From a virus: a stretch of DNA of 46,670 nucleotides. The stretch is taken from positions 1 to 46,670 of IMG/VR virus record IMGVR_UViG_3300031972_002472; one strand, 5' to 3'. The position numbers were made by a program, and so were the translations under genes. Of this stretch, positions 3,929-31,913 are shown in pieces; the stretch's first letter is position 1, and each line of letters opens with the position of its first letter. Below the pieces are notes generated by a model. The model was not told where the DNA came from. It made no database searches and was given only the letters and a program-made list of their open reading frames with translations.

Positions 3929-4419
3929 TGGCTATTAAAGATATATCAAAAAAACCTTTTATTCAAGACAATGATACCAATGTTAAAGTTGGTATTGATT
4001 TACCAATTCGTAGGGGTGCTGAACAAGATGGATTTTTTGCAACAACTTCAACAACCATTGAAGCTGTAAAAAACAATATAAGAAATTTGTTACAAACAAA
4101 TGAGGGTGAAAGATTTTTTCAACCAAACTTAGGTTTAAATTTAAGAACATTGTTATTTGAACATATCACCAATGAAAATTTAATTGGTGTACAAGATGCT
4201 ATATTAGATAAAATAGAATTTTGGTTACCTTTTGTTGAAGTAAGAGATATTCAAGTTTTAAGTAGAGATAACAATACAGATGTAGGAGCAAATGAAATAA
4301 GAGTTAAAATATTATTTAACATTAAACAAGACCCAAATACTTTGGATTCTATCACTTTAGATTTTAGTAGTGATATATCAGAGATTGAATCAAATACATC
4401 AAGTGGTGGTGGATATTAA
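3928..4419 (+). CDS. 25: Baseplate wedge protein gp25-like (GPW/gp25 family)
   Basis: The 163 aa product carries the gp25/GpW signature: a helix (AVKNNIRNLLQTNEGERFF), the loop QPNLGLNLRTLLFE and a final beta region (EIRVKILFNIK). In T4, gp25 is part of the inner baseplate wedge and helps start sheath assembly. Together with gp6 and gp53 it forms the wedge core. T4 gp25 is 132 aa, so this one has a modest C-terminal extension ending in a Ser/Gly tail. It is immediately upstream of the gp6-like gene, the usual order in this group. It starts within a TAATG overlap with the gene before. Confidence 0.9.
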   Translation: MAIKDISKKPFIQDNDTNVKVGIDLPIRRGAEQDGFFATTSTTIEAVKNNIRNLLQTNEGERFFQPNLGLNLRTLLFEHITNENLIGVQDAILDKIEFWLPFVEVRDIQVLSRDNNTDVGANEIRVKILFNIKQDPNTLDSITLDFSSDISEIESNTSSGGGY

Positions 4420-4432
4420 TTGGAGATAACAA

Positions 4433-6667
4433 ATGCCAAATTATGGTAAAGAAAATTTTAAAGAATCAAATGTAAATTATTTAAATAAAGATTTTGGAGC
4501 ATTAAAACAATCATTGATGAATTATGCTAAATCTTATTTTCCAAATACATATCGTGATTTTAATGAGACATCACCTGGTATGATGTTATTGGAAATGAAT
4601 GCGTATGTTGGTGATGTGTTATCATTTTATGTTGACCAACAATATCGTGAAATGTTATTACCTTTGGCTGAAGAAAGAAGAAACATAATCACAATGGCTA
4701 AGATGTTTGGTTATAAAGTAAAACCAATTGTTCCTGCTTATGTTGATTTAACATTTAAGTCAGATGTAAATGTAAGTAGTGGTGATGCATCAAAAGTAAA
4801 TTATAATCACGCGGGTGTATTTGATGCTGGTATTGGGGTAGTATCATCGACTGATTCTAATATTACTTTTGAAACATTAGAACCAATTGATTTTAGAATT
4901 GAAGATGACAGTGATACTAATACAATTGGCTCTACAAACGCTATTAGTGGTTTAGCAGAAACTTATACTTTATCAAGAACTGTAAGAGCTATGAGTGCAA
5001 CTCAAAAAACAATTACATTCCAAGTTGGAGTACCTGAAAAATTTAAAACATTAATCATACCTGATACAAATGTTATTGATATTATTTCTTGTGTGGATTC
5101 AAATAATAATAATTGGTATGAGGTTGACTTTTTAGCACAAGATAAAGTTCCAATTCAAATTCACTATACAGACGACATAAATAGAGCCTCAGCATATGCT
5201 GATGCGGAGGGTGGATTGGATTCAGGTACTGCTGTTCCTTTTTCATTAACTTATATTAATTCACCAAAAAGATTTACTCGTGAAACAAATCAAGACAATA
5301 CAACTTCATTAGTGTTTGGTAATGGTGTGTTGAAAGATGGTACAGATGGTACTATTGACCAGGGATATATTGATATGGAACAAGTTGGTATTGTAATACC
5401 TGGACAGACAAATGATTTAAATCAATCTATTGACCCATTATTGGGTAATGAATATTCAACACTTGGTGAAACACCAAACAACACAACTTTAACAATCACT
5501 TATCGTGTAGGTGGTGGGATTAATTCAAATGTTCCAGGTGTAGATTTGACAACTGGTGTAAGTGATATTACAGCTATTACACCAGCTCTTGGTACTGCAA
5601 CTTTAACAAGTGTAACAAACAATAATCCAGCTCGTGGTGGTAAGGATGAAGAAGATACAATTGAAATAAAAGAAAAAGCCAAAGCATTTTTCACAACACA
5701 AAACAGATGTGTGACTAAAGAAGATTATGAAGCTAGGGTGTTAAACATACCAAGTAAGTTTGGAAACATAGCAAAAGCATATGTGACAAGAGAAGCTCCT
5801 GAAATTCTTGGTGATTCTAATTTAACACAATTACAAAACTATTTTAATGATATAGATAGTGGTGTTACTTTTTTCCGAGACTACCTTAATTCACCACAAT
5901 TTACATTAAATTTAAACAACTTAATCAATGGGACAGGCAATATCGAAACAGTGATTTCTGGATTGGATGCCATTCTAGCATCAGAGATTGACGATATTGA
6001 ACAACCTGATATAAGTAATTTAGCTAGAGAATTAGAATTAGGAACAATAAACATTTATGTATTGGGATACAATAATAAAAAACAATTAGTTGGTAACACT
6101 CATTTCAGTAGTGTAGGCCTACCAACAACTTTAACATCAAACATAAAAAATTATTTAGAAAACTTTAAAATAATGACTGATACTGTAACAATCAATGATG
6201 GGTACATTGTAAACTTTGGCGTTATATTTGATGTGGTTGCTGAAAAATATGCAAACAAACAAAAAGTAAAATTAGATTGTATTCAAAAAATTAAAGATTA
6301 TTTTAGAATAGAAAACATGCAATTCAATCAACCAATTTATAAAAGTAATTTAGAATTTGAATTAATGGGTGTAGAGGGAGTTCGTTCTATTGGGCATGTA
6401 ACCCTTACTCAAGATTATGATTATTTTTATTTAGAAGACAGTGGTGATGGTGAATCATTAACTTCACCCACATACACATATTCTCGTGAAGGAGATGAAT
6501 TTATAGACCAATCAGGTGGAGAGGGAACAGCTGGTTATGGTTTTAAATATAATTTTGCAACTGCTCTTTCAGATGATGGTACAATTGTATTACCACCAAC
6601 TACAGATAACCCAGCTGTATTTGAATTAAAAAATCCAAACGAAAACATAGAAGGGAGGGTTAGATAA
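4433..6667 (+). CDS. 6: Baseplate wedge protein gp6-like (baseplate J family)
   Basis: The 744 aa product has the N-terminal gp6 signature: NVNYLNKDFGALKQSLMNYA, YFPNTYRDFNETSPGMML and AYVGDVLSFYVDQQYREM, followed by a J-like beta core and the conserved helical segment that starts near ENEDTIEIKEKA-type sequence (EDTIEIKEKAKAFFTTQNRC, about residues 407-426). In T4, gp6 forms the dimeric ring that ties the baseplate wedges together around the hub. T4 gp6 is 660 aa, so this version is slightly longer. A GGAGATA site precedes the ATG. It overlaps the next gene by one base (TAATG). Confidence 0.92.
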   Translation: MPNYGKENFKESNVNYLNKDFGALKQSLMNYAKSYFPNTYRDFNETSPGMMLLEMNAYVGDVLSFYVDQQYREMLLPLAEERRNIITMAKMFGYKVKPIVPAYVDLTFKSDVNVSSGDASKVNYNHAGVFDAGIGVVSSTDSNITFETLEPIDFRIEDDSDTNTIGSTNAISGLAETYTLSRTVRAMSATQKTITFQVGVPEKFKTLIIPDTNVIDIISCVDSNNNNWYEVDFLAQDKVPIQIHYTDDINRASAYADAEGGLDSGTAVPFSLTYINSPKRFTRETNQDNTTSLVFGNGVLKDGTDGTIDQGYIDMEQVGIVIPGQTNDLNQSIDPLLGNEYSTLGETPNNTTLTITYRVGGGINSNVPGVDLTTGVSDITAITPALGTATLTSVTNNNPARGGKDEEDTIEIKEKAKAFFTTQNRCVTKEDYEARVLNIPSKFGNIAKAYVTREAPEILGDSNLTQLQNYFNDIDSGVTFFRDYLNSPQFTLNLNNLINGTGNIETVISGLDAILASEIDDIEQPDISNLARELELGTINIYVLGYNNKKQLVGNTHFSSVGLPTTLTSNIKNYLENFKIMTDTVTINDGYIVNFGVIFDVVAEKYANKQKVKLDCIQKIKDYFRIENMQFNQPIYKSNLEFELMGVEGVRSIGHVTLTQDYDYFYLEDSGDGESLTSPTYTYSREGDEFIDQSGGEGTAGYGFKYNFATALSDDGTIVLPPTTDNPAVFELKNPNENIEGRVR

Positions 6668-7794
6668 TGCATCATTTTATTTTTCCAACACAAGACAATT
6701 GGATTTCAAGTGGTAGTAGTAAGATAGATGGAACTTCCTTCAAAGACCAAAACTTCGGAAGAGACCAAATACTTGAAGTCAAAAAAGAATTTTTTAACAC
6801 GTCATTCGACCATCAGACAAGAGCATTGGTTAATTTTAGTGGAACGGAATTTACTGAACTATCAAAATCAGTTGCTGATGGTACAATATCATCTAATGCT
6901 AAATATTATCTAAGGTTGTTTGAAGCTGAGGGTAATGCAGAAATGACTGAAGAATATAAATTAGCTATTCAACCAATCTCACAATCTTGGGTTGAGGGTA
7001 CTGGTAAGTTTGGAGACAATCCAAAAACAACAAATGGATGTAGTTGGGAAAATCGTAGTAATCCAATTGGGGGTAATGCTTTAACTTGGAGTAAAGCTGA
7101 TGGTACTAACAATCAAGGTGTATCTATATACTCTGTAAGTTCATCTACTCAAACTTTTTCAAACCAATCACCAGATGTAAATGTTGAAGTAACAGATATG
7201 ATGAATATGTGGTTAGAAGGTAGAGGAGAAAATTATGGAATGTTAGTTCGTTTTAGTGGTAGTCAAGAAACAGATGAAACTACTTTTGGACATTTAAAAT
7301 TCTTTTCAAGAAACACTCATACAATTTTTTCACCAAAACTTGAAGTCAGGTGGGATGATTCATCATTCTCTACTGGTTCATTAAATGAATTAACAATGAG
7401 TGGATTAGTAGATAACTTTTTATATATGAAAGGATTAAGAGAAAGTTATAAAGTAGGTGAACGAGTTAAGTTTAGAGTTGGTGCTAGGAAAAGATATATT
7501 CAAAAATCCTTTACTACTTCAGTTCAAACTTTGACTGGTTCATACATAACTAATAGTAGTGGTTCATATGCGATTAAAGATGTTGCTACTGATGAATTTA
7601 TTGTTCCATTTAAAGATTTAACAGGAACAAGTTATACAAAACTTAGTTGTGATAGTAATTCAAATTATTTTATTCAATATTTGGATGGATTTTATCCTGA
7701 TAGAGTTTATAAAATATTGTTAAAATTAAAATATGATGATGGACAAGAACAAGTGTTTGATGATGATTTTGAATTTATAGTTAAAAGGAAATAA
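6667..7794 (+). CDS. Virion protein with DNRLRE-like beta-sandwich
   Basis: The 375 aa product contains a region (about residues 15-230) resembling DNRLRE/disaggregatase-type beta-sandwich modules: an early FGRDQILEVKK, RALVNFSG strands, a helical-free stretch with KYYLRLFEAEGN, the LAIQPISQSWVEGTGKFGDN motif (Trp plus Gly-rich turn), VEVTDMMNMWLEG and the closing PKLEVRWDD. Such domains occur in surface proteins and bind or cap fibres. The C-terminal 140 residues are a separate beta-rich domain ending EFIVKRK. It directly follows gp6 with a TAATG overlap, the position of gp7 in T4, but it does not look like gp7. A similar fold seems to recur in the truncated last gene of the window. Confidence 0.65.
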   Translation: MHHFIFPTQDNWISSGSSKIDGTSFKDQNFGRDQILEVKKEFFNTSFDHQTRALVNFSGTEFTELSKSVADGTISSNAKYYLRLFEAEGNAEMTEEYKLAIQPISQSWVEGTGKFGDNPKTTNGCSWENRSNPIGGNALTWSKADGTNNQGVSIYSVSSSTQTFSNQSPDVNVEVTDMMNMWLEGRGENYGMLVRFSGSQETDETTFGHLKFFSRNTHTIFSPKLEVRWDDSSFSTGSLNELTMSGLVDNFLYMKGLRESYKVGERVKFRVGARKRYIQKSFTTSVQTLTGSYITNSSGSYAIKDVATDEFIVPFKDLTGTSYTKLSCDSNSNYFIQYLDGFYPDRVYKILLKLKYDDGQEQVFDDDFEFIVKRK

Positions 7795-7796
7795 AT

Positions 7797-9368
7797 ATGC
7801 CAGTTCCAGTAGAAGAATTATTAGATAGAATAGCCGAAGCTTTAATAGAGCACAATGGTATTGATACAACAGATGTTATAAATAATCAAAAATTTATTCT
7901 TAACGGACAATTACAATCAGGAGCGGGTGGTGATGTATTAGCACTATTTCAAAAAGATATTGAGGCGAATGTAGAAGACAATTTGCAAACTGCAGCTGAC
8001 CAAATAGATGATTCTGTTGGGTTTAATATTTATATTCTTGGTCAAAATGAAAATGTAACCATAACCATTGTAGGTGGTGGACTTCCAGATGGAGGTTTAC
8101 CTATTACTGATTTAGTCATTGGTGATGGTAATCCATTAAATTTAAGTCAGTTTATTCCGATAGAAAATAAAGAATCAATTGTAGATATAGAACGGGCTGA
8201 AGAATTTTTAGATACAAATATTTATGAATTACTTCCAAGTGGTGATACTCGACAATCAAGAATTATTAGATTATTTCAAGAATTAAACGCACTACTTCCA
8301 CCAGAAACACCTGAATTTGATATTAATCCACAAGATGGGGCTGTTGATAGAGATGAAAATGGTAATTGGATTGGAGATGAAGAATATCAACAAAACAATA
8401 GTATATCATATACTCAAGATAATTCTGATGAAAGTAATATTGATGAGGAAGATGCTTTTGTTCATAGACTAAAAAGTACAGCCAATGACACAAATTCAAC
8501 AAGAACCATTGAAGATATTTATAATACAATACTTCCTTATCTAACCGATATATTAGAAGACCCTATTTTACCACAAGATGATAGACCAAAGTATGAAAAT
8601 CAATCAAGTGGATATTTACAATTTAGAAATTTAAATCAAGGTATTATTATTCGTAATACAAATCAAGAATTTGTAAAGGGATTAAATCCAAACACTCAAG
8701 ATTATTTATCAACGGGTTTTACTATCACGATGTGGGTTAGATTTTTAGATAAGGTATCAGAAGGTACATTGTTTAATTTTGGAAATCCATTAAGAGATGA
8801 AAATCCATTTGGATTTAAATTAGAAACCTACGTGTTGGGTAAGGATGACCCTAATCCACATGGTGGTGGTGTACATACCACTTGGGGTGAGTTTGATATT
8901 TATTGTCAAGACAGAATAGATAATCCTGGAACAAATGATATTTATTTACCAAGATATGAAAATTCAAATACTGCTCGTTATGTTAGACTTGTTGTTGAGG
9001 ATAATGGGGTATTAAGAGATTCACATACTGGTGTAGGTGGTGGACAAAAAAGACCTGACATCCCACTTTTACCTGGCAGTGTAACAAGAGATATAGCATT
9101 AGCTCAAACAACATTCATACCAGAAGACTTTCAAGAATGGTATTTCATATGTGCTTCATTCAATCCTGCTGTTGATGAGGATGGTTCATACACACCACCT
9201 TTAACCGACCCACCAGGTATAGATTTAAGTCATAGTACAAACTATTGGTTAAATCATATAGACCCAACTACAGGTGAAAGTGTTGTAAACTCAGATTACG
9301 GAAACAGATGTAAAGTGGAAATTATTTCAAAATCAGATTTACTACGAGCTCGTGGTTTTAAATCATAG
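7797..9368 (+). CDS. Baseplate/tail protein with LamG-like domain
   Basis: The 523 aa product has an acidic N-terminal half with a Gly-rich hinge (TIVGGGLPDGGLP) and helical segments. A concanavalin/LamG-like jelly-roll runs over about residues 270-490: GYLQFRNLNQGIIIRN, GFTITMWVRFLDK, GTLFNFGNPL and the closing EEWYFICASF-like strand (FQEWYFICASFNP). Such domains usually bind carbohydrate or protein surfaces. It lies between the DNRLRE-like protein and the giant intein-bearing protein. AAGGA precedes the ATG. A virion role is inferred from operon position. Confidence 0.65.
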   Translation: MPVPVEELLDRIAEALIEHNGIDTTDVINNQKFILNGQLQSGAGGDVLALFQKDIEANVEDNLQTAADQIDDSVGFNIYILGQNENVTITIVGGGLPDGGLPITDLVIGDGNPLNLSQFIPIENKESIVDIERAEEFLDTNIYELLPSGDTRQSRIIRLFQELNALLPPETPEFDINPQDGAVDRDENGNWIGDEEYQQNNSISYTQDNSDESNIDEEDAFVHRLKSTANDTNSTRTIEDIYNTILPYLTDILEDPILPQDDRPKYENQSSGYLQFRNLNQGIIIRNTNQEFVKGLNPNTQDYLSTGFTITMWVRFLDKVSEGTLFNFGNPLRDENPFGFKLETYVLGKDDPNPHGGGVHTTWGEFDIYCQDRIDNPGTNDIYLPRYENSNTARYVRLVVEDNGVLRDSHTGVGGGQKRPDIPLLPGSVTRDIALAQTTFIPEDFQEWYFICASFNPAVDEDGSYTPPLTDPPGIDLSHSTNYWLNHIDPTTGESVVNSDYGNRCKVEIISKSDLLRARGFKS

Positions 9369-9379
9369 GGATTTAAACA

Positions 9380-12300
9380 ATGGCTGACGAAAATAATAAT
9401 AATAAAATAAATCCAAGCGGACTTACAAATAGAACTGAAGAGGGTGGCTTTGGTGGTATTGGTGATGGGGAAATAACACCAAGACCTAGACCTAGACCGA
9501 GACCTAATGATGGTCACAATAATGATGGTCATCATCATCATAATCATAAACATAATGGTAATGGAAATGGTTTAGGTGGTTTAGATGGAGAAACTGGTGA
9601 TGGTGATGTTGCTGGAGGTGGTGGACCAGATGGTGGTGGTGGTAATCAAGAATGTTTCGTTGCTGGAACAAAAGTCAAAATGTCAAATGGTTTGGAAAAA
9701 AACATTGAAGACATTAAAATTGGTGAAAAAGTTCTTTCTTACAATGTTCATACAAAAAAATTAGAATTAAAAAAAGTAACTAAATTATTTACACAAGTAC
9801 ACGATTTAGTTGATGGTGACATTACTGTTAAAACAAAATTCAACAATGGTGTGGAAACTCACAACACAATTGCAAATCCATTTTGGTCAAAAGATAAAGT
9901 ATTCGTAGCAGCTGATGCTGAAAGATGTAATAGATTACATAAATGGGTTAAACAAAGTAATAAAGGAAAAGACACCGAACAATTAAAAGTTGGTGATACA
10001 TTGTATCATTACAATGGTGAAGAATTACAAGAAGTAATGGTTACTGAAATTGAACACATTGTAGAACCATACATTAGAACATATGATATAACCATTGAAG
10101 ACAACCATACTTTTTTCGCTAATGGTATATTGACTCATAACTCCGGTGGTGATGCAGGTGATACTCCTGATGACAGTATTAATACTTATATACGTGGTTG
10201 TTTTGACCCAGGTGCAGATAATTACTATTGTGATGACCCCGACATCCCTACCCCTTGTTATGAAGGTTGTCCACCTGATGCTGACGCATGTTTAGATGAT
10301 GGTAGTTGTACATATGGTGGAGTAGATACTACTTATTCTGACGCTCCTAATCTTTTATGTTGTCTTTCAAACACTCACGATGGAACAGTTAGATACGGTG
10401 GTGAATTTCCATTTAGTGATGTGGAAAGTATTACTGAATTATATTATGGTGATAGTGAACTTAATGTAGGAAATGTTTATAATGCAGAGGCATGTAATCA
10501 AGTAGATTGTAGTATTCAAGAATTTGATGATGAACAAAATTTAATTCCAAAAGTACACTTTGATGGTCATTGTGTTAATTCATTAGGAACACATGGTAGA
10601 TTTGGACACAATATTGTTTTTGATTATTATTATGATACAATTCTTAGAAACTTTGATTATAATGATGAAGGTGAGGGTGATATTACAACCCCATCACTTT
10701 ACCATTATCCATTTGTTAGAACAAGGTTTGATTTTGATGATTCTTCAGAAAGCAATGCTATAGAATATAATAGAGATGTCGAAAACGAGAATAGATATTT
10801 TGAACCAATTACTCATACGAGTGTAGTCGATGAAGACACATGGGATGATTTTAATGATGGTTTAAATAATGGAGATAGTGTTATATTTGGTGATGCTGAA
10901 TATGATATTGGAGTACTTAATGAAGTATTTGATAGATTTCAAACTGGTGTGGATAAGGACGGAACTGAATTATATAATTTACCAATTTATAGAGAATTAA
11001 GTTGTCAAGATATTGAAAATAATGCGGGTATTGTTGTAGGTGATTATACTGGAAAAAAAGAAGATTATGATTTAGGGATAGGTTTTACCAAGTCACCATT
11101 TAGTTCTGGAGACATTCCAGAAGTTGATAATGAAACATATACATTAGGTGACAGTCACTCCAAAGGTATTGATTTTTGTGGTGGTGATGCATTGGTTACT
11201 GAAGCATTTCAAATTTTATTTGATAAACCATTGTACTTTAGAATAATAATGAACATATTTGCAAATCACCCAATAGAAACATGGTTTAGGTCTATTACTG
11301 AAGATACTCAAATTCCAAATCCAACTGATGGTTTTGGACTTGATAGTAGTGGTGTTGACGACATTATTGCTACTATAGAAGGTGAAGAATATATTAAAGA
11401 TGTTTTTATAAATGATGAAAAATTGAACAGAGATGTATTGATAAGAATTGGATTCCCCTTACCACCAATTTCATTTAATGAAATGGATTGTGCTGGTATA
11501 AGAGGTTCATATCTTCAATTAGTTGATGAATTTATTGGTGAGGTAGAAGCACTAACATTTTTTGCTGATTTTCAAATACCAAATGTAGAAATTGAACCAA
11601 CGATGAAAAATGAATTAGATGTATTGAGTGGAATTGATTTAAGAGAAGATGGATTAGATGCTTGTAGTCATATAGAATTTATGACTTTACCAGGTGGTAA
11701 CGCGGATGGTGATGGAATTTATTATACAGGTAATGACATTCCACCTATTTACTTTGATGCTCCATATGATGGTAATGTGGGTAACACTGCAGCAAATGAT
11801 ATGACAAAAGAAACTTATGTAAGAACTTTTGATTGTAAAACTGAACTTAATAACAATATACAATTTAGTAAAATGAGAGCCGTGTGTAAAGATGGTTCAT
11901 CGGTTGAAATGGCACAAGCTGGTATACAAGGTAATGGGTCTGTAACTATAGATTACGAAGACCCTACTGAAGCATTTTTCAATACAGGTGTGGAAGCTTG
12001 TAATTCAATATTAAAATTAAATTCAAGTCAAGAACTATATTATTTATCAGACAATGATGGTAAAGAATCATTAGGTATTTTCTTTTATGATAGTGAAAAC
12101 AAACTATCTGAAAATTTTATTAATGATAAAGATGAATCATTTGAACAATATGTTTATAAAAATGGTATTAAAAATGGTAATGGACGAGATGTTGGATATA
12201 CCTATACAGACGCGTCTTGGAACAATTTGGGTTGGGGACAAATTTATGAAGCTGAGAATTGGACTTTAATTGATAGCGTTGCAACGGACTTTAGTTTAAA

Positions 12301-15300
12301 CCATTATTCAAATAACATATCACCATATTGGAGAGCGAGTTATTTAGAATGTTTTTCACATAATAAATGTATTGTAGTTGATACTTTGAAACCACTTATA
12401 CAAAATGGTGTATCTGGATATGACCCAAGACAAGGTCTTACTACTTTTATAGATAGAGATGATTTACCAGAAATTGCACGAAGAAAAAAACAAAAATTTA
12501 AATTATCTTTTATGATGAAAACAATTGACTTAGGTGTTGGAGTTGATTTAAAAAATACAGGTATACATACTGTTTTAGAATTTGATAATTCTAAGGTTAG
12601 TAATCAAAATAAGTCATTTGCAGAATCTAAAATAGAAACAAAAGAATATAAAACTTCACAATGTTCACCATATGGTAAAAATCCAAATCATTATTCTGCT
12701 ATTTTGACTGAAGACAGATATTGTAAACAAACACGAGCTTCATTTACAAATAATAAAATAAATGAATGGCAAAAAATGGAGTATGTGTTTGAAGTTAATA
12801 CCGATAATAATCTTAATTCATACAAAGGTATAAATTTATATTTAACACCTTTAGATTATGCAAAATTTGAAGGAGATTTGTATACTGAAACAAATGATGA
12901 TTTATCTTATTTAGAAGATAATGCTTCTGTGATTTTAATAGATAATGTTGAATTTAAAGAAGCTTATGATTTTCATCCAGATGTTGACGTGAGAAAGAAA
13001 AAAGGAACAAATGATTATGGATTAGTAAGTTTAACAGAATATTATGATAGATTTAAACCAACTACTAATCCTGATAAAGTAATAGAAGAATTTAACGATA
13101 CAACTGCGCCATTGGAAGTACAATTTTATTTTTATCCAAGATTTCCATATGATAATACATTATCACCAAATAGAGAAATACTTTTAGAGGAATTTGAATT
13201 TAAACAATTTTATATCTCTGATGTGGATTGGGGTGATGGTTCACCAATTGAATTTACAACTGAACCAAAAAACATAGGAACAGATGTAGCTGTTTATCAT
13301 ACTTATGAAAAATCTGGAACATATGAAGTACAAGGAACTATGTTTATAACAGTAGCTGAGGAATACTCATACTCACTAAATCCTGGTGATAGAGAGTATA
13401 ATGGTAATTTAGGTGTTGGTTATAATAAAAAATTTAGGATAAAAATTAACATTAATGAGGGGTTAGATGAAGACTTTACATATTTTGGAACTGATGGTTT
13501 TTCATTTATTCCATATAAAAATACTTTACCACTTATAGGTGGATATTCAGAACAAAGTATTTATTATAAATCTTTAAAAAGAAATCTTGGTATTATTGAT
13601 ACAACTACATTTAATAATTTATTAGTAGAAAGTGAATTACTCACAAAAGATTTTCACGGGTACAACGGTACAGATGGAGCTAATTTTACTACACCAGCTA
13701 TAGAAGTGGAATTAGGTGGTGAAGATGGTTGGTATAAAACTCTTAGAGTAAATGAATTAACAGGTAATACAAACACAGAATTTCTTATGAGTAATAATGT
13801 TCCTGTAATTCCTGGTGTTACATATGTGGAATCATTTGATTTAAAACATGATGGAACAATTGATTCATTGGATATAACATTTTGGAATAGTACTAATGAG
13901 CATCGTGAAGTCTCTGCAATAATTGAAGATTTGGGTATTGATAATGATGGTAATTTTCATAAAAGAGTTTCAGCACAATTTACAACTGAAGATGGTGATA
14001 TTAAAATAAGAGCTATTGATTTTAAAAATGTTAATGATGATATTGATGGAGATTTTACATTTTTAGCAGTTAAAAATATTAGGTTTTATTCTTTAGAAGA
14101 TTTATCAAATACTTCATTAGTGGATGTTAATTATAAACGTATATCAGATAGATTACAAACAGAGTTAGCTTTTCAAAAAATGGATGATTCATATAATGAC
14201 AGTGGCGCATTTGATATTTTAAATTATTATCAAACACCACTTGAAATAACTGAAAATACATCGGATGAATATTTAGCCACTTTACCATTTCCAAGATACT
14301 TTCAAGAATTTGATATACTTGATGAAAATGAATTAACTGTTGAAACATATAATAGATGGGTTTTTGAAGGAAGGCCTGATATAGCAGAAGTTGTATTACA
14401 CAACATGTCAGAAGAAAGAGCTCAAATTGGAATTGTTGGTATTAAGAATATAGGAATGGGTTTTAATGTTACATTGGTTAAACCATTTGATGATTATAAT
14501 TCTATGCCACTTAACTATGAACTTTTTGACCAACCATTACTTGAACTTGCTATTAGTACTTATGCTTGTGCTACAGTTTTTGGAGGTGATGGTGATTTCA
14601 ATGGTGGTGATTATGCAGTAACACAAGCAGTTGGTACAGCTATTGATGATGATGGGGGTGAATGGGAAACATTTGATTGTATAGTGACTAATATTGATGA
14701 AGAGAGGAATGTAAATTTACCCACAATAAGTGAAAGTGATACTTATAATCCACCTGAAGTTTATATAAATCCAACTATAGAAAGACAAACGGAACAATAT
14801 ACTGGAAAACAATTTAGTTCACTTAAAGAACAACTTGGTAAATCTATTGGTGATTTAGATATTACAAGTATAAAATATTATGATACACCAAAATCCATAT
14901 GGGAATTGCTTGGATTTGAAGAAGAAGATTTAGAACAAATTGGAACACCCGATAATTCAAGATATTGGAAAAACATTATTCCTGAAGATTACTCTATTTA
15001 TAATAGAGAGGGTATTAATATTAATTCATCTCCAATAATAGACCCAAAACCATTTTATGAATTTGAAGAAATATTATCACCTGAATATTTTTCGGGTGAT
15101 GTGATAGGTCAATTGGTATGTGCACAAGGTGATGAAAATTGTCAAAGTAAATATGTAAATGGGGCTGAAGCATATGCTGAAGCTGCTGGTGAAGGTTTTA
15201 ATTGTCCAGGTAGTTATAGTACTGAAGAAGGAACATTTTGTAACAACATAGATAAAATATACCCTAATACAAATTATAATCTTATGACATTTATACCAGG

Positions 15301-15802
15301 CACGGTTGAGTTTTGTCACCCATTACTTGGATGTACAGGATTTGATAAAGGTGAGGGAATTATGTTAGAAGGACCAATGAATTATGACCAAAATGATTTC
15401 AACGTAATTTATACTGGACCATTTATGAGTTTTAATATTGTTAGTTTTGCTATGGTAGTGGATACTTATTCACAACAAGAGTGGTTAAATAATTATTACT
15501 ATCCTGTATTACCAAGATATGGACTAGATGGAAAATTCATTGAAGATGATTTTCCAAATGACAACATTCCATTTTCATTAGAAGGAAATATAACTGATGA
15601 GTATGAAAAAAATCAAAACTTATTAACAAATTTATCAGTAGATATGATTGATACAAATGTTTTAAATGATGGTAGTGGAGAAAATAATAAAGGATTTGTT
15701 ATATCTGATTATAAACCAAAGTCTGATATTGAAACATTGGAAAATAAAAAAATAAAAAATATGATTGTAATGAAACATAAAAAGTCTAATGGGGCGTTTT
15801 AA
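9380..15802 (+). CDS. Giant baseplate/tail protein with intein and PKD-like domain
   Basis: This 2140 aa precursor has four visible parts. Residues 1-91 are low complexity (Gly, His, Asn, four Arg-Pro pairs). Residues 92-254 are an intein-like Hint domain. Next comes a Cys-rich segment (272-312) ending DDGSCTY. A long middle part contains a beta-sandwich/CBM-like region (about 960-1200) and a PKD-like domain with VDWGDGSP at 1282-1289 followed by YHTYEKSGTYEV. The last 500 residues share motifs with the next gene: GRPDIAEV, KYYDTPKSIWELLGFEEEDL and a KGFVISDYK tail. If spliced, the mature protein would be 1977 aa. It lies in the late operon after gp6, where T4 has gp7-gp10, so an outer wedge role is inferred. 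AGGGA precedes the ATG and the stop overlaps the next start as TAATG. Confidence 0.8.
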   Translation: MADENNNNKINPSGLTNRTEEGGFGGIGDGEITPRPRPRPRPNDGHNNDGHHHHNHKHNGNGNGLGGLDGETGDGDVAGGGGPDGGGGNQECFVAGTKVKMSNGLEKNIEDIKIGEKVLSYNVHTKKLELKKVTKLFTQVHDLVDGDITVKTKFNNGVETHNTIANPFWSKDKVFVAADAERCNRLHKWVKQSNKGKDTEQLKVGDTLYHYNGEELQEVMVTEIEHIVEPYIRTYDITIEDNHTFFANGILTHNSGGDAGDTPDDSINTYIRGCFDPGADNYYCDDPDIPTPCYEGCPPDADACLDDGSCTYGGVDTTYSDAPNLLCCLSNTHDGTVRYGGEFPFSDVESITELYYGDSELNVGNVYNAEACNQVDCSIQEFDDEQNLIPKVHFDGHCVNSLGTHGRFGHNIVFDYYYDTILRNFDYNDEGEGDITTPSLYHYPFVRTRFDFDDSSESNAIEYNRDVENENRYFEPITHTSVVDEDTWDDFNDGLNNGDSVIFGDAEYDIGVLNEVFDRFQTGVDKDGTELYNLPIYRELSCQDIENNAGIVVGDYTGKKEDYDLGIGFTKSPFSSGDIPEVDNETYTLGDSHSKGIDFCGGDALVTEAFQILFDKPLYFRIIMNIFANHPIETWFRSITEDTQIPNPTDGFGLDSSGVDDIIATIEGEEYIKDVFINDEKLNRDVLIRIGFPLPPISFNEMDCAGIRGSYLQLVDEFIGEVEALTFFADFQIPNVEIEPTMKNELDVLSGIDLREDGLDACSHIEFMTLPGGNADGDGIYYTGNDIPPIYFDAPYDGNVGNTAANDMTKETYVRTFDCKTELNNNIQFSKMRAVCKDGSSVEMAQAGIQGNGSVTIDYEDPTEAFFNTGVEACNSILKLNSSQELYYLSDNDGKESLGIFFYDSENKLSENFINDKDESFEQYVYKNGIKNGNGRDVGYTYTDASWNNLGWGQIYEAENWTLIDSVATDFSLNHYSNNISPYWRASYLECFSHNKCIVVDTLKPLIQNGVSGYDPRQGLTTFIDRDDLPEIARRKKQKFKLSFMMKTIDLGVGVDLKNTGIHTVLEFDNSKVSNQNKSFAESKIETKEYKTSQCSPYGKNPNHYSAILTEDRYCKQTRASFTNNKINEWQKMEYVFEVNTDNNLNSYKGINLYLTPLDYAKFEGDLYTETNDDLSYLEDNASVILIDNVEFKEAYDFHPDVDVRKKKGTNDYGLVSLTEYYDRFKPTTNPDKVIEEFNDTTAPLEVQFYFYPRFPYDNTLSPNREILLEEFEFKQFYISDVDWGDGSPIEFTTEPKNIGTDVAVYHTYEKSGTYEVQGTMFITVAEEYSYSLNPGDREYNGNLGVGYNKKFRIKININEGLDEDFTYFGTDGFSFIPYKNTLPLIGGYSEQSIYYKSLKRNLGIIDTTTFNNLLVESELLTKDFHGYNGTDGANFTTPAIEVELGGEDGWYKTLRVNELTGNTNTEFLMSNNVPVIPGVTYVESFDLKHDGTIDSLDITFWNSTNEHREVSAIIEDLGIDNDGNFHKRVSAQFTTEDGDIKIRAIDFKNVNDDIDGDFTFLAVKNIRFYSLEDLSNTSLVDVNYKRISDRLQTELAFQKMDDSYNDSGAFDILNYYQTPLEITENTSDEYLATLPFPRYFQEFDILDENELTVETYNRWVFEGRPDIAEVVLHNMSEERAQIGIVGIKNIGMGFNVTLVKPFDDYNSMPLNYELFDQPLLELAISTYACATVFGGDGDFNGGDYAVTQAVGTAIDDDGGEWETFDCIVTNIDEERNVNLPTISESDTYNPPEVYINPTIERQTEQYTGKQFSSLKEQLGKSIGDLDITSIKYYDTPKSIWELLGFEEEDLEQIGTPDNSRYWKNIIPEDYSIYNREGININSSPIIDPKPFYEFEEILSPEYFSGDVIGQLVCAQGDENCQSKYVNGAEAYAEAAGEGFNCPGSYSTEEGTFCNNIDKIYPNTNYNLMTFIPGTVEFCHPLLGCTGFDKGEGIMLEGPMNYDQNDFNVIYTGPFMSFNIVSFAMVVDTYSQQEWLNNYYYPVLPRYGLDGKFIEDDFPNDNIPFSLEGNITDEYEKNQNLLTNLSVDMIDTNVLNDGSGENNKGFVISDYKPKSDIETLENKKIKNMIVMKHKKSNGAF
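9482..9555 (+). repeat. Low-complexity Arg-Pro and His-rich N-extein
   Basis: Four tandem AGA-CC(T/G) codon pairs at 9482-9505 encode PRPRPRPRP-type sequence. Bases 9521-9555 encode DGHHHHNHKH. The tract lies about 100 bases before the intein start. Such DNA is prone to slippage, and the His cluster could bind metal ions, as in many phage tail-tip proteins. No family fold is visible. Confidence 0.8.
9653..10141 (+). other. Mini-intein (Hint domain), 163 residues, no homing endonuclease
   Basis: The segment begins at Cys92 (CFVAGTKVKM, block A, Cys1) and ends with block F/G sequence DITIEDNHTFFANGILTHN followed by Ser255 as the +1 nucleophile. Cys1, the penultimate His, terminal Asn and Ser+1 are all present, so full protein splicing is chemically plausible. 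There is no LAGLIDADG or HNH endonuclease insert, which makes this a mini-intein. The expected block B motif TxxH reads TIAN before PFW, with Asn in the His position, so the first acyl shift may be slow or use another residue. The insertion site is in Gly-rich low-complexity sequence instead of a conserved active site, which is unusual. The alternative is a bacterial-intein-like or Hedgehog-type Hint that cleaves without ligating. Confidence 0.85.
10193..10315 (+). other. Cys-rich segment with GCxDPxAxNY...DDGSC motif
   Basis: Just after the intein, the sequence reads GCFDPGADNYYCDD, then several Cys, then ACLDDGSCTY. This matches, from memory, a short Cys module (GCTDPxAxNYxxxAxxDDGSCxY) common in extracellular proteins of marine bacteria and phages. 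Here it is expanded with extra Cys-Pro sequence. Paired cysteines suggest disulfides or metal binding in a surface-exposed part of the particle. Confidence 0.6.
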
Positions 15803-27095: not shown

Positions 27096-27605
27096 ATGGT
27101 TATATTAGGATTAGATGCATCAACGACTTGTGTCGGTTATGCATTCACACAAGATAAGAAGATTCTCGATATGGGATTCATCGACATCAAAAAAGAACAA
27201 ACACCCAAAGATAAAGTTGAAAAAGTGCTTGAAAAATTGAATGAAAGTTCGTATATTAATGATGTACTTGATATTAATATTGAAGATAGTTTATCAGGAT
27301 TTGCTGGTGGAAGAACTTCACAACAAGTTATTATCAAATTAGCTAAGTTTAATGCAATACTTTGTTTTATGTTAGAACACTTTGATTATAGAGTTAATAA
27401 CATAAATCCAATGACTGCTAGAAAACAAGTATTTGGAAAAGCTAGAGTCAAGGGAATAAAAGCAAAAGATTTAGTTAAAATGAAAATTGAAGAAATGTAC
27501 AATACCAAAAAATGGTGTAAAGAAACTGCACGGGGAAATTGGGATAAAAGGAATATCGATATGTACGATGGTTTAGTAATGTCACTTTATGAAAATAAAG
27601 CTTGA
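27096..27605 (+). CDS. ruvC: RuvC-like Holliday junction resolvase
   Basis: The 169 aa product has an RNase H-like fold with the RuvC arrangement: LGLDASTTCVGYA (Asp7), then IEDSLSGFAGGRTSQQ (Glu63), then NIDMYDGLVMSL (Asp155 and Asp158). These match the four acidic metal ligands of RuvC, spaced similarly to E. coli RuvC (7, 66, 138 and 141). It would cut branched DNA made by replication and recombination before packaging. T4 uses the unrelated gp49 endonuclease VII, so this is a functional replacement. An AGGAGA site precedes the ATG and overlaps the previous stop. Confidence 0.88.
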   Translation: MVILGLDASTTCVGYAFTQDKKILDMGFIDIKKEQTPKDKVEKVLEKLNESSYINDVLDINIEDSLSGFAGGRTSQQVIIKLAKFNAILCFMLEHFDYRVNNINPMTARKQVFGKARVKGIKAKDLVKMKIEEMYNTKKWCKETARGNWDKRNIDMYDGLVMSLYENKA

Positions 27606-27638: not shown

Positions 27639-28559
27639 ATGTATAAATACGAATTAGTTAAATTATTAGAAAAAGTTTTATATCCAAGTTATGAAATGAA
27701 AGGTGGGGAACATGCTTTCCATTGTCCTTTTTGTAATCATCATAAAAAGAAACTTCAAGTAAACTTTGAAACACAAAAGTGGCATTGTTGGGTTTGTAAT
27801 GCTGGTGGTCATAAGATTGGAATATTACTTAGAAAAATAAACGCACCTAAACAAATCATATCAGAAGTATTAAGAATACTTGGTGATTATAAAGGTGTTA
27901 AATATGAAAAAGATAAAAAGACAGAATATAATGTCAGTTTACCTCAATGTTATCAACCACTTTGGAAACCATCAACAGACCCATTATATAGAAATGCCAT
28001 AAGTTATTTAAAGAAGAGAGGAATAGGTGGAATAGATATTCTTCGTTATTCTATGGGTTATTGTTCATCAAATGGGTATTCTAATCGTATTATTATTCCA
28101 AGTTATGATGCTGATGGTAAATTGAATTATTTTATAGCTAGAGATATGTTTCCAAATAGTAAGTTTAAATACAAAAATCCACCGATGTCAAAGGATACAG
28201 TGTGTTTTGAGATGTTTATAAATTGGAATGAACCTATTGTTTTAGTTGAAGGTGTATTTGATGCTATTGCTATTAGAAGAAATGCTATACCTTTATTAGG
28301 TAAGTTTCCAAGTAAGACATTGGTTATGAGATTAGTAGAAAAAAAAGTAAAAACAATATATGTGGCATTGGATGAGGATGCTAGACAAGACGCAATTAAG
28401 TTAAGTAAGTTTTTAATGGATTATGGAATTTCAACATACTTATTAAATATGAAGGATAAAGACCCATCAGAATTAGGTTTCACAAGATTTTGGGAGTTAC
28501 TCAATACAACTCAACAATCAACATTTTCAGATATTATAAAAGGCAGATTATATGGTTAA
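27639..28559 (+). CDS. 61: DNA primase, gp61-like (zinc finger plus TOPRIM)
   Basis: The 306 aa product has an N-terminal zinc-binding domain with HCPFC (Cys29, Cys32) and HCWVC (Cys50, Cys53), then a TOPRIM core: VLVEGVFDA with catalytic Glu204, and VALDEDA with Asp245 and Asp247. It would synthesise RNA primers for the lagging strand with the gp41 helicase. T4 gp61 is 342 aa, so this is slightly shorter. There is no clear ribosome binding site, and an upstream in-frame mini-ORF (27618) ends in TAG right at the start codon. The stop overlaps the next gene by eight bases. Confidence 0.9.
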   Translation: MYKYELVKLLEKVLYPSYEMKGGEHAFHCPFCNHHKKKLQVNFETQKWHCWVCNAGGHKIGILLRKINAPKQIISEVLRILGDYKGVKYEKDKKTEYNVSLPQCYQPLWKPSTDPLYRNAISYLKKRGIGGIDILRYSMGYCSSNGYSNRIIIPSYDADGKLNYFIARDMFPNSKFKYKNPPMSKDTVCFEMFINWNEPIVLVEGVFDAIAIRRNAIPLLGKFPSKTLVMRLVEKKVKTIYVALDEDARQDAIKLSKFLMDYGISTYLLNMKDKDPSELGFTRFWELLNTTQQSTFSDIIKGRLYG

Positions 28560-31500
28560 AACAATTGCTCATTTAGCAGATATACATATTAGAAAACTAC
28601 ATAGATTTGTAGAATACAGACAAGTATTTAAAAATCTATATAAACAATTAAAAGACTTAAAACCAGATGCTATATACATTGGTGGTGATGTAGTTCATGG
28701 AAAATTGGATACCTCACCCGAAGAAGTAAGAATGGTTGCAAACTTCTTTTTAGAATTATGTAAGATTGCTCCTACAATTATCATACCAGGTAATCACGAT
28801 TGTAATTTAAATAACAAATCAAGAGAAGACACACTTTCTCCTATTATTGATTTAGTTAAAAAGATTACACCTAATTTACATTATTGGAAACAATCAGGTG
28901 TTTATACAATGGATAATGTTGACTTTGGTGTTATGTCTATATTTGATATTGATAAAGAAGGTAAACAATTAACAACAGGTTTACCTAACCCTAAAGATAT
29001 GGGTGATAACAAGATTGCACTATTTCACGGTGGAGTGGATAAACACTTTTATGATAATGGATTTCAAGTGGAAGACGATAGAGTAAAGGTTGATACATTT
29101 CAAGGTTATGATATGGTGATGTTGGGTGATATACATAAAAGACAATTCTTAGATGTAGATGAAAGAGTTGCATATCCAGGTTCTTTGATTCAACAAAATT
29201 ATTCAGAAGAACCAAGTCACGGATTTCTATTATGGGATGTAGAAAAAAGAAAAGCTGAATATCATCAAGTAGAGAATGATTATGGGTATAAAATACTACA
29301 AGTGGTAGATGGTGTGATTCAAAACAAAATGAATTTCATACCACCAAAAGGTAGTATTAAGATAAAGTATACAAATACAACATTGGAACAAATTAAAGAC
29401 ATTCAAATGGATGTAAGAAAGAAGTATCCAAAGCTTAAAGATGTTGTAACGGAAAGACAAGATAATATTTCAATTGGTGGTGATAGAGAGAATAAGTTGG
29501 ACATCGGTGATGTAAGAGATATTAATTATCAGAATGAATTAATTGAAGATTTCTTGAAAAGAAATGTTGAAGGCATACATGAAGAAACAATTAAAAGAGT
29601 ACAACACATAAATGATATGACGAATAACTCACCAGAAATATATGATGGTGATATTACAAGGAATGTGGATTGGAAAATTAAATCATTTGAATTTGACAAT
29701 ATGTTTTGTTATGGTAAAGGAAACAAAATAGACTTTACTAAATTGGATGGAACGGTTGGTGTAGTTGCTCCTAACCATAGTGGTAAATCTGCTATAATGG
29801 ATGCTATTGCATATACAATCTATGATGTATGTAGTAGAACTAATCGAGCGTTGGATGTAATGAATAAAAAGAAAACTACATTCAGAGCTAAATTGAATTT
29901 AGAAATCAATGGTATGGATTATTGGATTGAAAGAGATGCAACTTACAAAAGAGTGAATCATAAGAATGGTAAAGTATCTCATCAGTGTCCAGTTAAGGTT
30001 AAGTTCTATATGATAGACGAAGGTGGTGAAGAAGTGGATTTAAGTGGAGCAGCCCGTTTTAATTCTCAGTATGGTGGGGGAACTAATGAGGAAATCAAGA
30101 AAGTGTTAGGAACATTTGACGACTTCATCCTTACCTCGTTATCGCTACAAACCAATGGTATGAACTTCCTTGACAAGAAACAATCTGAGCGAAAAAAAAT
30201 TCTTTCTACTTTTATGGATATTGAGGTGTTTGAACAACTCGAAACTATAGCCAAATCCGATTCAAATGAAGAACGAGTTATGTTACGACAATTCCAAAAG
30301 AAAGATTCATATAAAGAATTAGGTACTATTAATCAACGAATCATTGAAATGGAAAAAGATGAAGATGAATTGAATACAAAAGATAAATCAATTGGTAATA
30401 AATTAACCGAATTAGAATCTGATAAAATAAATTTAGTTAGAAAACTATATAAAATAGATGAAACATATGATATTGAAGAATTAAAAACTTTACAACAAAA
30501 CCTTATATCTGAAAAACAAACTATTGAATCTCAACTTAAAGATGATAAAGAATACAAAGAACAACTTCGTCCAATGTATATGGATTATCATAAGAAACTT
30601 TCTGAAATAGATGAAGAAAAAATACAAGAAGATTATGAAAAATATAAAGAACTAAAAAAAGATGTTAGAGATTATGAGAATGCTTTAAAACTTAATGAAT
30701 CAAAAACTAAATCTTTAAATCATCACAACGCAGATTTAATGAAATTTAAATACGATGAAAATTGTGAATTTTGTATAAAAAATGGTAAAGAACAAATACA
30801 CGAACAAGATGAAATACAAAATAAAATAAAAGAATTATTTGATGAACATTCTAATTTAACTGCTCATTATAAAAAGTCATCATATGGACTTGAAAAGTTA
30901 GGTGATGCAGAAGAAAGAAATCGTGAGTTTAAAATATTCTCTGAAGAATTAAATCAAATACAACACGATGCTGTTAAGATTGGTGGTAAGATTTCTACAC
31001 AAGAAAGTAGATTAAATCACATTGAAAGTGAATTAACTACATTGGAATCTAATGTAAAAAGATACTATGAGTTAGAAGAAAAGATTGAAAACAATAAAAG
31101 ATTAAATGAACAAATATCTAATTTAACTTCTAAAATATCTAAACTACAAATGGATTCAATATCCATAGATAAAGATTATAAAAAAGTATTATCAACACTA
31201 TCAGTTGCTAAAAACCAAAAACAACAAATAGAAGATGATATTCAAAATCTTGTTGATATAGAACAAAAGATATTGGATTATGATTTATATCTTTTAGCTC
31301 TTTCTAAAGATGGTGTTCCTTATGAATTAATCTCAAAAGCTATTCCTTCGATTGAACGAGAAATCAACAATGTATTAGAAAATATGAATGCTGGTTTCCA
31401 TATTGAATTAGAGATGAAAGATAAAATGATTGATGCATTTATATGTTATGGTGATGATAAATGGAATCTTGAATTATCATCAGGTATGGAAAGATTCGTA

Positions 31501-31752
31501 TCTTCTCTTGCTATTCGTATTGGATTAATCAATGTATCAACATTACCTCGTCCAAACTTCATAATTGTAGATGAGGGATTCGGTGCATTGGATTCTGATA
31601 ATATTGCTAATATGCAGGGAGCATTTCAATACTTGAGAACTCAATTTGATTTCACAATGATTATTACTCACTTGGATACAATCAAAGATTATATGGATAC
31701 ATTGATTCCAATTAATGTAAACAATGGTTTGAGTAAAGTGGTGATGAATTAA
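28552..31752 (+). CDS. 47/46: Fused gp47-gp46 (Mre11-Rad50/SbcD-SbcC-like) recombination protein
   Basis: A single 1066 aa polypeptide contains both subunits of the phage recombination nuclease. Residues 1-340 are a gp47/Mre11 metallophosphatase: LADIH (Asp10, His12), GGDVVH (Asp46), GNHD (81-83), FHGG (His159), GDIH (Asp193, His195). From about residue 374 it is gp46/Rad50: Walker A-like APNHSGKS (406-413), a coiled coil, the zinc hook CEFC (738-741), a second coiled coil, LSSGMERF (signature, 975-982), FIIVDEGFGALD (Walker B and D-loop, 1003-1014). In T4 these are separate genes of 339 and 560 aa. The frame is continuous and all key motifs are intact apart from Ala instead of Gly at the first Walker A position. 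It would process ends and drive recombination-dependent replication. Confidence 0.92.
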   Translation: MVKTIAHLADIHIRKLHRFVEYRQVFKNLYKQLKDLKPDAIYIGGDVVHGKLDTSPEEVRMVANFFLELCKIAPTIIIPGNHDCNLNNKSREDTLSPIIDLVKKITPNLHYWKQSGVYTMDNVDFGVMSIFDIDKEGKQLTTGLPNPKDMGDNKIALFHGGVDKHFYDNGFQVEDDRVKVDTFQGYDMVMLGDIHKRQFLDVDERVAYPGSLIQQNYSEEPSHGFLLWDVEKRKAEYHQVENDYGYKILQVVDGVIQNKMNFIPPKGSIKIKYTNTTLEQIKDIQMDVRKKYPKLKDVVTERQDNISIGGDRENKLDIGDVRDINYQNELIEDFLKRNVEGIHEETIKRVQHINDMTNNSPEIYDGDITRNVDWKIKSFEFDNMFCYGKGNKIDFTKLDGTVGVVAPNHSGKSAIMDAIAYTIYDVCSRTNRALDVMNKKKTTFRAKLNLEINGMDYWIERDATYKRVNHKNGKVSHQCPVKVKFYMIDEGGEEVDLSGAARFNSQYGGGTNEEIKKVLGTFDDFILTSLSLQTNGMNFLDKKQSERKKILSTFMDIEVFEQLETIAKSDSNEERVMLRQFQKKDSYKELGTINQRIIEMEKDEDELNTKDKSIGNKLTELESDKINLVRKLYKIDETYDIEELKTLQQNLISEKQTIESQLKDDKEYKEQLRPMYMDYHKKLSEIDEEKIQEDYEKYKELKKDVRDYENALKLNESKTKSLNHHNADLMKFKYDENCEFCIKNGKEQIHEQDEIQNKIKELFDEHSNLTAHYKKSSYGLEKLGDAEERNREFKIFSEELNQIQHDAVKIGGKISTQESRLNHIESELTTLESNVKRYYELEEKIENNKRLNEQISNLTSKISKLQMDSISIDKDYKKVLSTLSVAKNQKQQIEDDIQNLVDIEQKILDYDLYLLALSKDGVPYELISKAIPSIEREINNVLENMNAGFHIELEMKDKMIDAFICYGDDKWNLELSSGMERFVSSLAIRIGLINVSTLPRPNFIIVDEGFGALDSDNIANMQGAFQYLRTQFDFTMIITHLDTIKDYMDTLIPINVNNGLSKVVMN

Positions 31753-31913
31753 AGCTTTAAAATTCTATCTGTGTCTTTAGGTTCGTTTTTAAAATAATCA
31801 AATAATATTCTTGATAGATTTGCTGATATAGTCAATCCTCTTGACTTACTATCATTTATAAGTTTACTATCTATTATTTCAGATATTGATATTGACCTTA
31901 TTTTCTTTTCCAT
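31749..31913 (-). CDS. Small ribbon-helix-helix-like DNA-binding protein
   Basis: This 54 aa gene reads from ATG at 31913 leftward to a TAA at 31751-31749. The product MEKKIRSISISEIIDSKLIN plus DSKSRGLTISANLSRILFDY has the Arc/MetJ-type pattern: a short basic beta strand (RSISIS), a first helix, a Gly turn (RGLT) and a second helix (SANLSRILFDYF). An AGAGGA site (31921-31926) lies seven bases upstream. It is the only minus-strand gene found, convergent with the Mre11-Rad50 gene. The two stops overlap within the palindrome TTAAAGCTTTAA (31749-31760). A promoter-like site and operator-like repeats lie just upstream, so autoregulation and regulation of the divergent fibre operon are plausible. 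Confidence 0.75.
   Translation of the reverse strand: MEKKIRSISISEIIDSKLINDSKSRGLTISANLSRILFDYFKNEPKDTDRILKL

Follow-up and report, generated by a model that had tools for sequence, protein, structure and literature searches.

The viral DNA stretch analysed here (the window, 46,670 nucleotides) very likely encodes a genuine fused Mre11-Rad50 (MR) protein of the viral family typified by Mimivirus R555, working much as T4 gp47-gp46 does. The gene occupies 28552..31752 of the plus strand as a single open frame of 1066 codons that begins with ATG and ends in a stop at 31750-31752. A preliminary description had placed both enzymes in one polypeptide, and this was borne out by the open frame, by Pfam and PHROG matches, by the motifs and by conservation in relatives. 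An Mre11-like nuclease is N-terminal and a Rad50-like ATPase C-terminal, in the order Mre11/SbcD phosphoesterase, capping region, helix-loop-helix, linker, first Rad50/SbcC half-head, coiled coil and second half-head, and PHROG phrog_77 (SbcC) spans residues 267-1064 (E = 3.5e-42). The predicted single-chain model (mean pLDDT 81.8, pTM 0.45) followed the same path, with Mre11 nuclease and capping strands and helices, then helix-loop-helix, linker, Rad50, two long helical arms flanking the hook, and a second half-head. At a pTM of 0.45, we infer rather than read from the model how the domains are placed and that they assemble in cis.

The Mre11/SbcD metallophosphoesterase domain covers approximately residues 1-248 (28552..29295, plus strand; the boundary, drawn from PF00149 and the motif columns, is approximate), with the Pfam Metallophos match (PF00149, calcineurin-like phosphoesterase) at residues 4-196 (E = 3e-12). 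Its motifs are DIH (10-12), GDVVH (45-49), GNHD (80-83), H159 and GDIH (192-195). Across 56 aligned relatives D10, D46, H49, N81, H82, H159, D193 and H195 are invariant, and H12 is kept in 48 of the 56, with Gln in the remainder. Every metal-binding position holds a plausible ligand, two of them substituted: GDxxH stands for GDxxD and GDxH for GHxH, both in 56/56 aligned relatives. The second exchange puts Asp in the place of P. furiosus His206, an equivalence assigned by motif and not by superposition. Asp and His are both suitable as Mn or Zn ligands. The capping region and C-terminal helix-loop-helix (helices 324-338 and 344-358) follow at 29296..29625 (plus strand), with approximate boundaries taken from the predicted model, in which the whole Mre11 part ends at about residue 358.

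On the Rad50 side, the N-terminal half-head (29668..30219, plus strand; motifs, Pfam and predicted model) carries Walker A APNHSGKS at 406-413 and Q533. The coiled coil (30220..31386, plus strand; helices 558-945 in the model) bears the zinc hook CEFC at 738-741, both CxxC cysteines being invariant in 56/56 aligned sequences. The C-terminal half-head (31387..31749, plus strand; Pfam, alignment and model) contains the signature SSGME at 976-980, Walker B/D-loop FIIVDEGFGALD at 1003-1014, and H1040. The Rad50-side Pfam matches, SMC_N at 390-439 and SbcC_Walker_B at 975-1025, lie below the Pfam cut-off. Walker A, Q-loop, signature, Walker B, D-loop, H-loop and CxxC hook were thus all found in the window fusion. 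An earlier statement that all motifs are intact stands in so far as none of them is broken, yet substitutions that run through the family affect both metal site and P-loop. In the 56 relatives the Walker A pattern is A-x-N-x-x-G-K-S, its Ala (for the first Gly) and Asn being invariant, and the signature reads S-G-M-E after S, T, C or A, the usual form being S-G-G. Since nearly all of these residues are invariant in the aligned relatives, the non-canonical motifs are family features and not damage. Broken or decayed motifs were ruled out, the odd residues being family-wide, and the fusion is well-formed and probably functional.

No biochemical data were found for any member of the R555-like fusion family. 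By homology with T4 gp47-gp46 and SbcCD, the window protein is most likely active as a one-chain DNA-end nuclease. Its chains would pair through their Mre11 domains, with ATP held between the Rad50 heads of the dimer, and the coiled coils would terminate in a zinc hook tethering DNA. Binding and hydrolysis of ATP would shift the heads, whereupon the nuclease would resect or open DNA ends, and the processed ends would pass into recombination, repair and replication. The fusion would set a 1:1 ratio and tie every Mre11 helix-loop-helix to the Rad50 head of the same chain. The two metal-site swaps (GDxxH and GDxH), together with the Walker A Ala, could change the activity. One possibility, which we hold to be rather unlikely, is that the aquatic-phage family represents an MR lineage of its own, fused long ago, in which swapped ligands and obligatory pairing in cis have led to a nuclease specificity or ATP coupling different from that of split MR. 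We also doubt, and more strongly, that the altered ligands make it a nuclease-weak or specialised MR acting mainly as an ATP-gated DNA tether or a structure-specific endonuclease and not as an end resector. Such a reading finds support in the replacement of GDxxD and GHxH in all aligned members, as in R555 (Yoshida et al., 2011; PMC3175470), but the remaining metal ligands are conserved, and the swapped positions are themselves under strong constraint, which argues that catalysis is retained.

The inter-domain linker comprises residues 359-372 (29626..29667, plus strand), as delimited by the predicted model, by linker lengths and by conserved R370 and W374. Among the 56 relatives, 13-15 residues separate the end of the helix-loop-helix from the near-invariant Trp374. 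R370 and W374, at the linker end, are conserved in this alignment, and the first Rad50 strand of the model starts at residue 373. Helix-loop-helix, linker and Rad50 head in sequence, with this spacing, fit the known Mre11-Rad50 interface, as had been proposed. The protein retains the capping region and helix-loop-helix, the linker is long enough to bridge about 28 A, and its length comes near the 9-12 residues computed for that distance by Yoshida et al. in their linker argument (PMC3175470). The linker block was modelled less confidently (block mean pLDDT 62), as would suit a chain translated whole and then cleaved into Mre11 and Rad50 parts. We regard such cleavage as very improbable, for Pfam and PHROGs revealed no intein or protease domain in the fusion protein, and the near-constant linker length and conserved linker-end residues speak against it.

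A scan of IMG/VR viral contigs with the full protein recovered 13 loci at 74-100% identity, and scans with alignments extended this to relatives at about 33-58% identity. At 146 retrieved loci, a number that includes some contigs two times, the whole fusion lies in one open frame. With the exception of a single contig (L008, which recurs as L097), the close-relative loci without contig-end cuts all carry the one-frame fusion. A scan with the Mre11 part only is the fairer test, because a full-length query may favour fusions. Its 80 loci, the best 80 of more than 570 matches, divide into 66 with the fusion, 13 truncated at the end of a contig or locus, 1 with an in-frame stop and 0 split; distant split relatives may have escaped, given that only these best matches were kept. 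Nearly every retrieved relative of the window protein thus has the fused form, and the Mre11-Rad50 junction is continuous and conserved among independent contigs. That an assembly or sequencing error joined adjacent gp47-like and gp46-like genes, the usual form elsewhere being split MR genes in an operon (e.g. T4, Bacillus phages), has a negligible chance of being true and is refuted by independent contigs at 74-100% identity with the same one-frame junction near 29600-29700, by the 146 loci, by a linker kept at 13-15 residues with R370 and W374 conserved, and by cultured-phage records of the fusion. The preliminary description was right on this junction, but its view of the fusion as unusual has to be given up: the form is near-universal among retrieved relatives, and a paper of 2011 had already described Mre11/Rad50 fusions (PMC3175470). 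It had itself named a widespread and already described fusion as the outcome that would undo its proposal, and with 146 one-frame loci and the 2011 paper this is the outcome we obtained.

Several individual loci deserve mention. The exceptional contig (IMGVR_UViG_3300031972_002264) has its in-frame stop at L008:9016-9018, just before Walker B, either a sequencing error or a decaying copy. In the uncultured huge phage LR756508.1 (L003), the fused MR gene at 3950-8175 is interrupted directly after GDIHKRQ by a frame of 305 aa (4671-5588) whose product has Cys motifs resembling zinc fingers, along with a TnsA-like endonuclease domain. This insert looks like a homing-endonuclease insertion, perhaps inside an intron; a group I intron was considered, and an Rfam search of the interrupted locus gave no match. 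Three relatives (L168, L169 and L170) sit on contigs of 3.9-7.1 kb binned to genomes of an archaeon, a deltaproteobacterium and a Bacteroidetes, and the short size suggests stray phage contigs.

A DNA primase gene (DnaG-like, Zn-ribbon and Toprim; 27639..28559, plus strand; phrog_47, E = 1.4e-39) overlaps the start of the fusion gene by 8 bases in the window. The primase is directly upstream of the fusion in 143 of the 145 loci with at least 2.5 kb of upstream sequence. A RuvC-like Holliday-junction resolvase, at 27096..27605 in the window (plus strand; phrog_159, E = 7.4e-8), was found upstream in 20 of these 145. Each of 13 long IMG/VR contigs gave one SbcC-like match and no second (13/13), so that these phages, that of the window included, probably have no MR enzyme besides the fusion. 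Two contigs have an extra, small metallophosphoesterase (236-245 aa), and the Microcystis phage Mel-JY01 has two additional weak SbcC-like stretches. In the wider family, 9 of 14 long records contain RecA-type proteins. Within the clade of the window itself, the two longest contigs, G001 (L010, 168.8 kb) and G002 (L006, 114.5 kb), both possibly incomplete, gave no match to RecA (PF00154), which makes a T4-like route of recombination-dependent replication uncertain in this clade. Elsewhere in the window, positions 9380-15802 encode a protein of 2140 aa that bears a Hint/intein-like domain close to the N-terminus (PF07591, residues 100-254, E = 1.7e-8), after a baseplate-wedge-like gene at 4433-6667 (phrog_219). 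A 54-aa frame on the minus strand (31749-31913) converges on the fusion gene, overlaps the stop codon of that gene and resembles by eye a ribbon-helix-helix DNA-binding protein; it has no Pfam match.

Sequence scores, a tree and fold comparison all placed the window protein nearer to the fused viral proteins than to canonical MR proteins encoded separately, with R555 judged by its description. The protein scored 582 and 513 bits against fused phage proteins versus 102 bits against the best split pair. A 27-row tree separated the fused from the split phage proteins by one branch (support 97/93), and in it an aquatic-phage core including Mel-JY01 and the window formed a supported group (100/99). 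The deep tree has very long branches for phiLo, T4 and pT24, and the placement of phiLo and pT24 is unsure; we relied on the supported core clade alone and, given such branches, do not claim a single origin of all phage fusions. For the core aquatic-phage family, one ancient fusion event is the simplest reading.

Among cultured phages, the nearest counterpart is the Mel-JY01 protein WWT39521.1, which has 1066 aa like the window protein, matches it over the full length at about 34% identity, has a primase nearby upstream and belongs to the same supported clade. A literature search on this phage found nothing. Thermus phage phiLo_161 and Tenacibaculum phage pT24 (gp019) also combine an Mre11-like N-terminus with a Rad50-like remainder in one chain, but both proteins are very divergent from the window fusion, and Walker A of phiLo is the canonical GPNGSGKS. 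Cultured-phage fusions appear to carry annotations of one subunit or domain: that of Mel-JY01 (L002:5962-9162) is named "AAA domain containing protein", that of phiLo_161 (L176:4412-7012) "endonuclease subunit" and that of pT24 (L178:5986-9918) "metallo-phosphoesterase". T4 gp47/gp46 are the same two kinds of enzyme with the same domain order of action, and are likewise recombination genes. In T4, however, the genes are separate, with 46.1 and 46.2 in between, GHFH of gp47 and GRNGGGKS of gp46 are canonical, and gp46, at 560 aa, has a coiled coil shorter than that of the fusion.

Structure searches pointed in the same direction. Hits in the PDB included the Mre11 and Rad50 proteins from T. maritima, M. 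jannaschii, E. coli and Chaetomium, and the best viral matches (BFVD) are giant-virus fusions, with Tupanvirus first (E = 8.7e-70, 26% identity) and then Harvfovirus, Yasminevirus and Catovirus, which look like R555 orthologues. A further BFVD entry, A0A068CB47 of Listeria phage LMTA-57 (1009 aa), is a full-length fold match and may be a fusion or a two-gene joined record. R555 itself was reported as an Mre11/Rad50 (SbcD/SbcC) fusion by Yoshida, Claverie and Ogata (2011; PMC3175470), together with twelve further fusions in bacteria, plasmids, eukaryotes and Bacillus phage 0305phi8-36; we compared R555 and the Bacillus phage by their description in that paper, not by sequence. Like the window protein, R555 has Mre11 then Rad50 in one chain, a short linker and the same two metal-ligand swaps, there described as His for the third Asp (GDxxH) and Asp242 for P. 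furiosus His206. It is longer (1351 versus 1066 aa), and the window protein sits clearly on a tailed-phage contig. The same authors found R555-like homologues, probably phage-borne, to be abundant in aquatic samples from short marine reads, and noted primases adjoining them. The enzyme class, the Mre11/Rad50 fusion, its aquatic-virus distribution and its structural rationale have therefore been in print since 2011. What the long contigs add is that the R555-like fusions of those marine reads sit stably on tailed-phage contigs beside primase, and this natural single chain of about 1050 residues could suit work on MR structure and mechanism as a construct.
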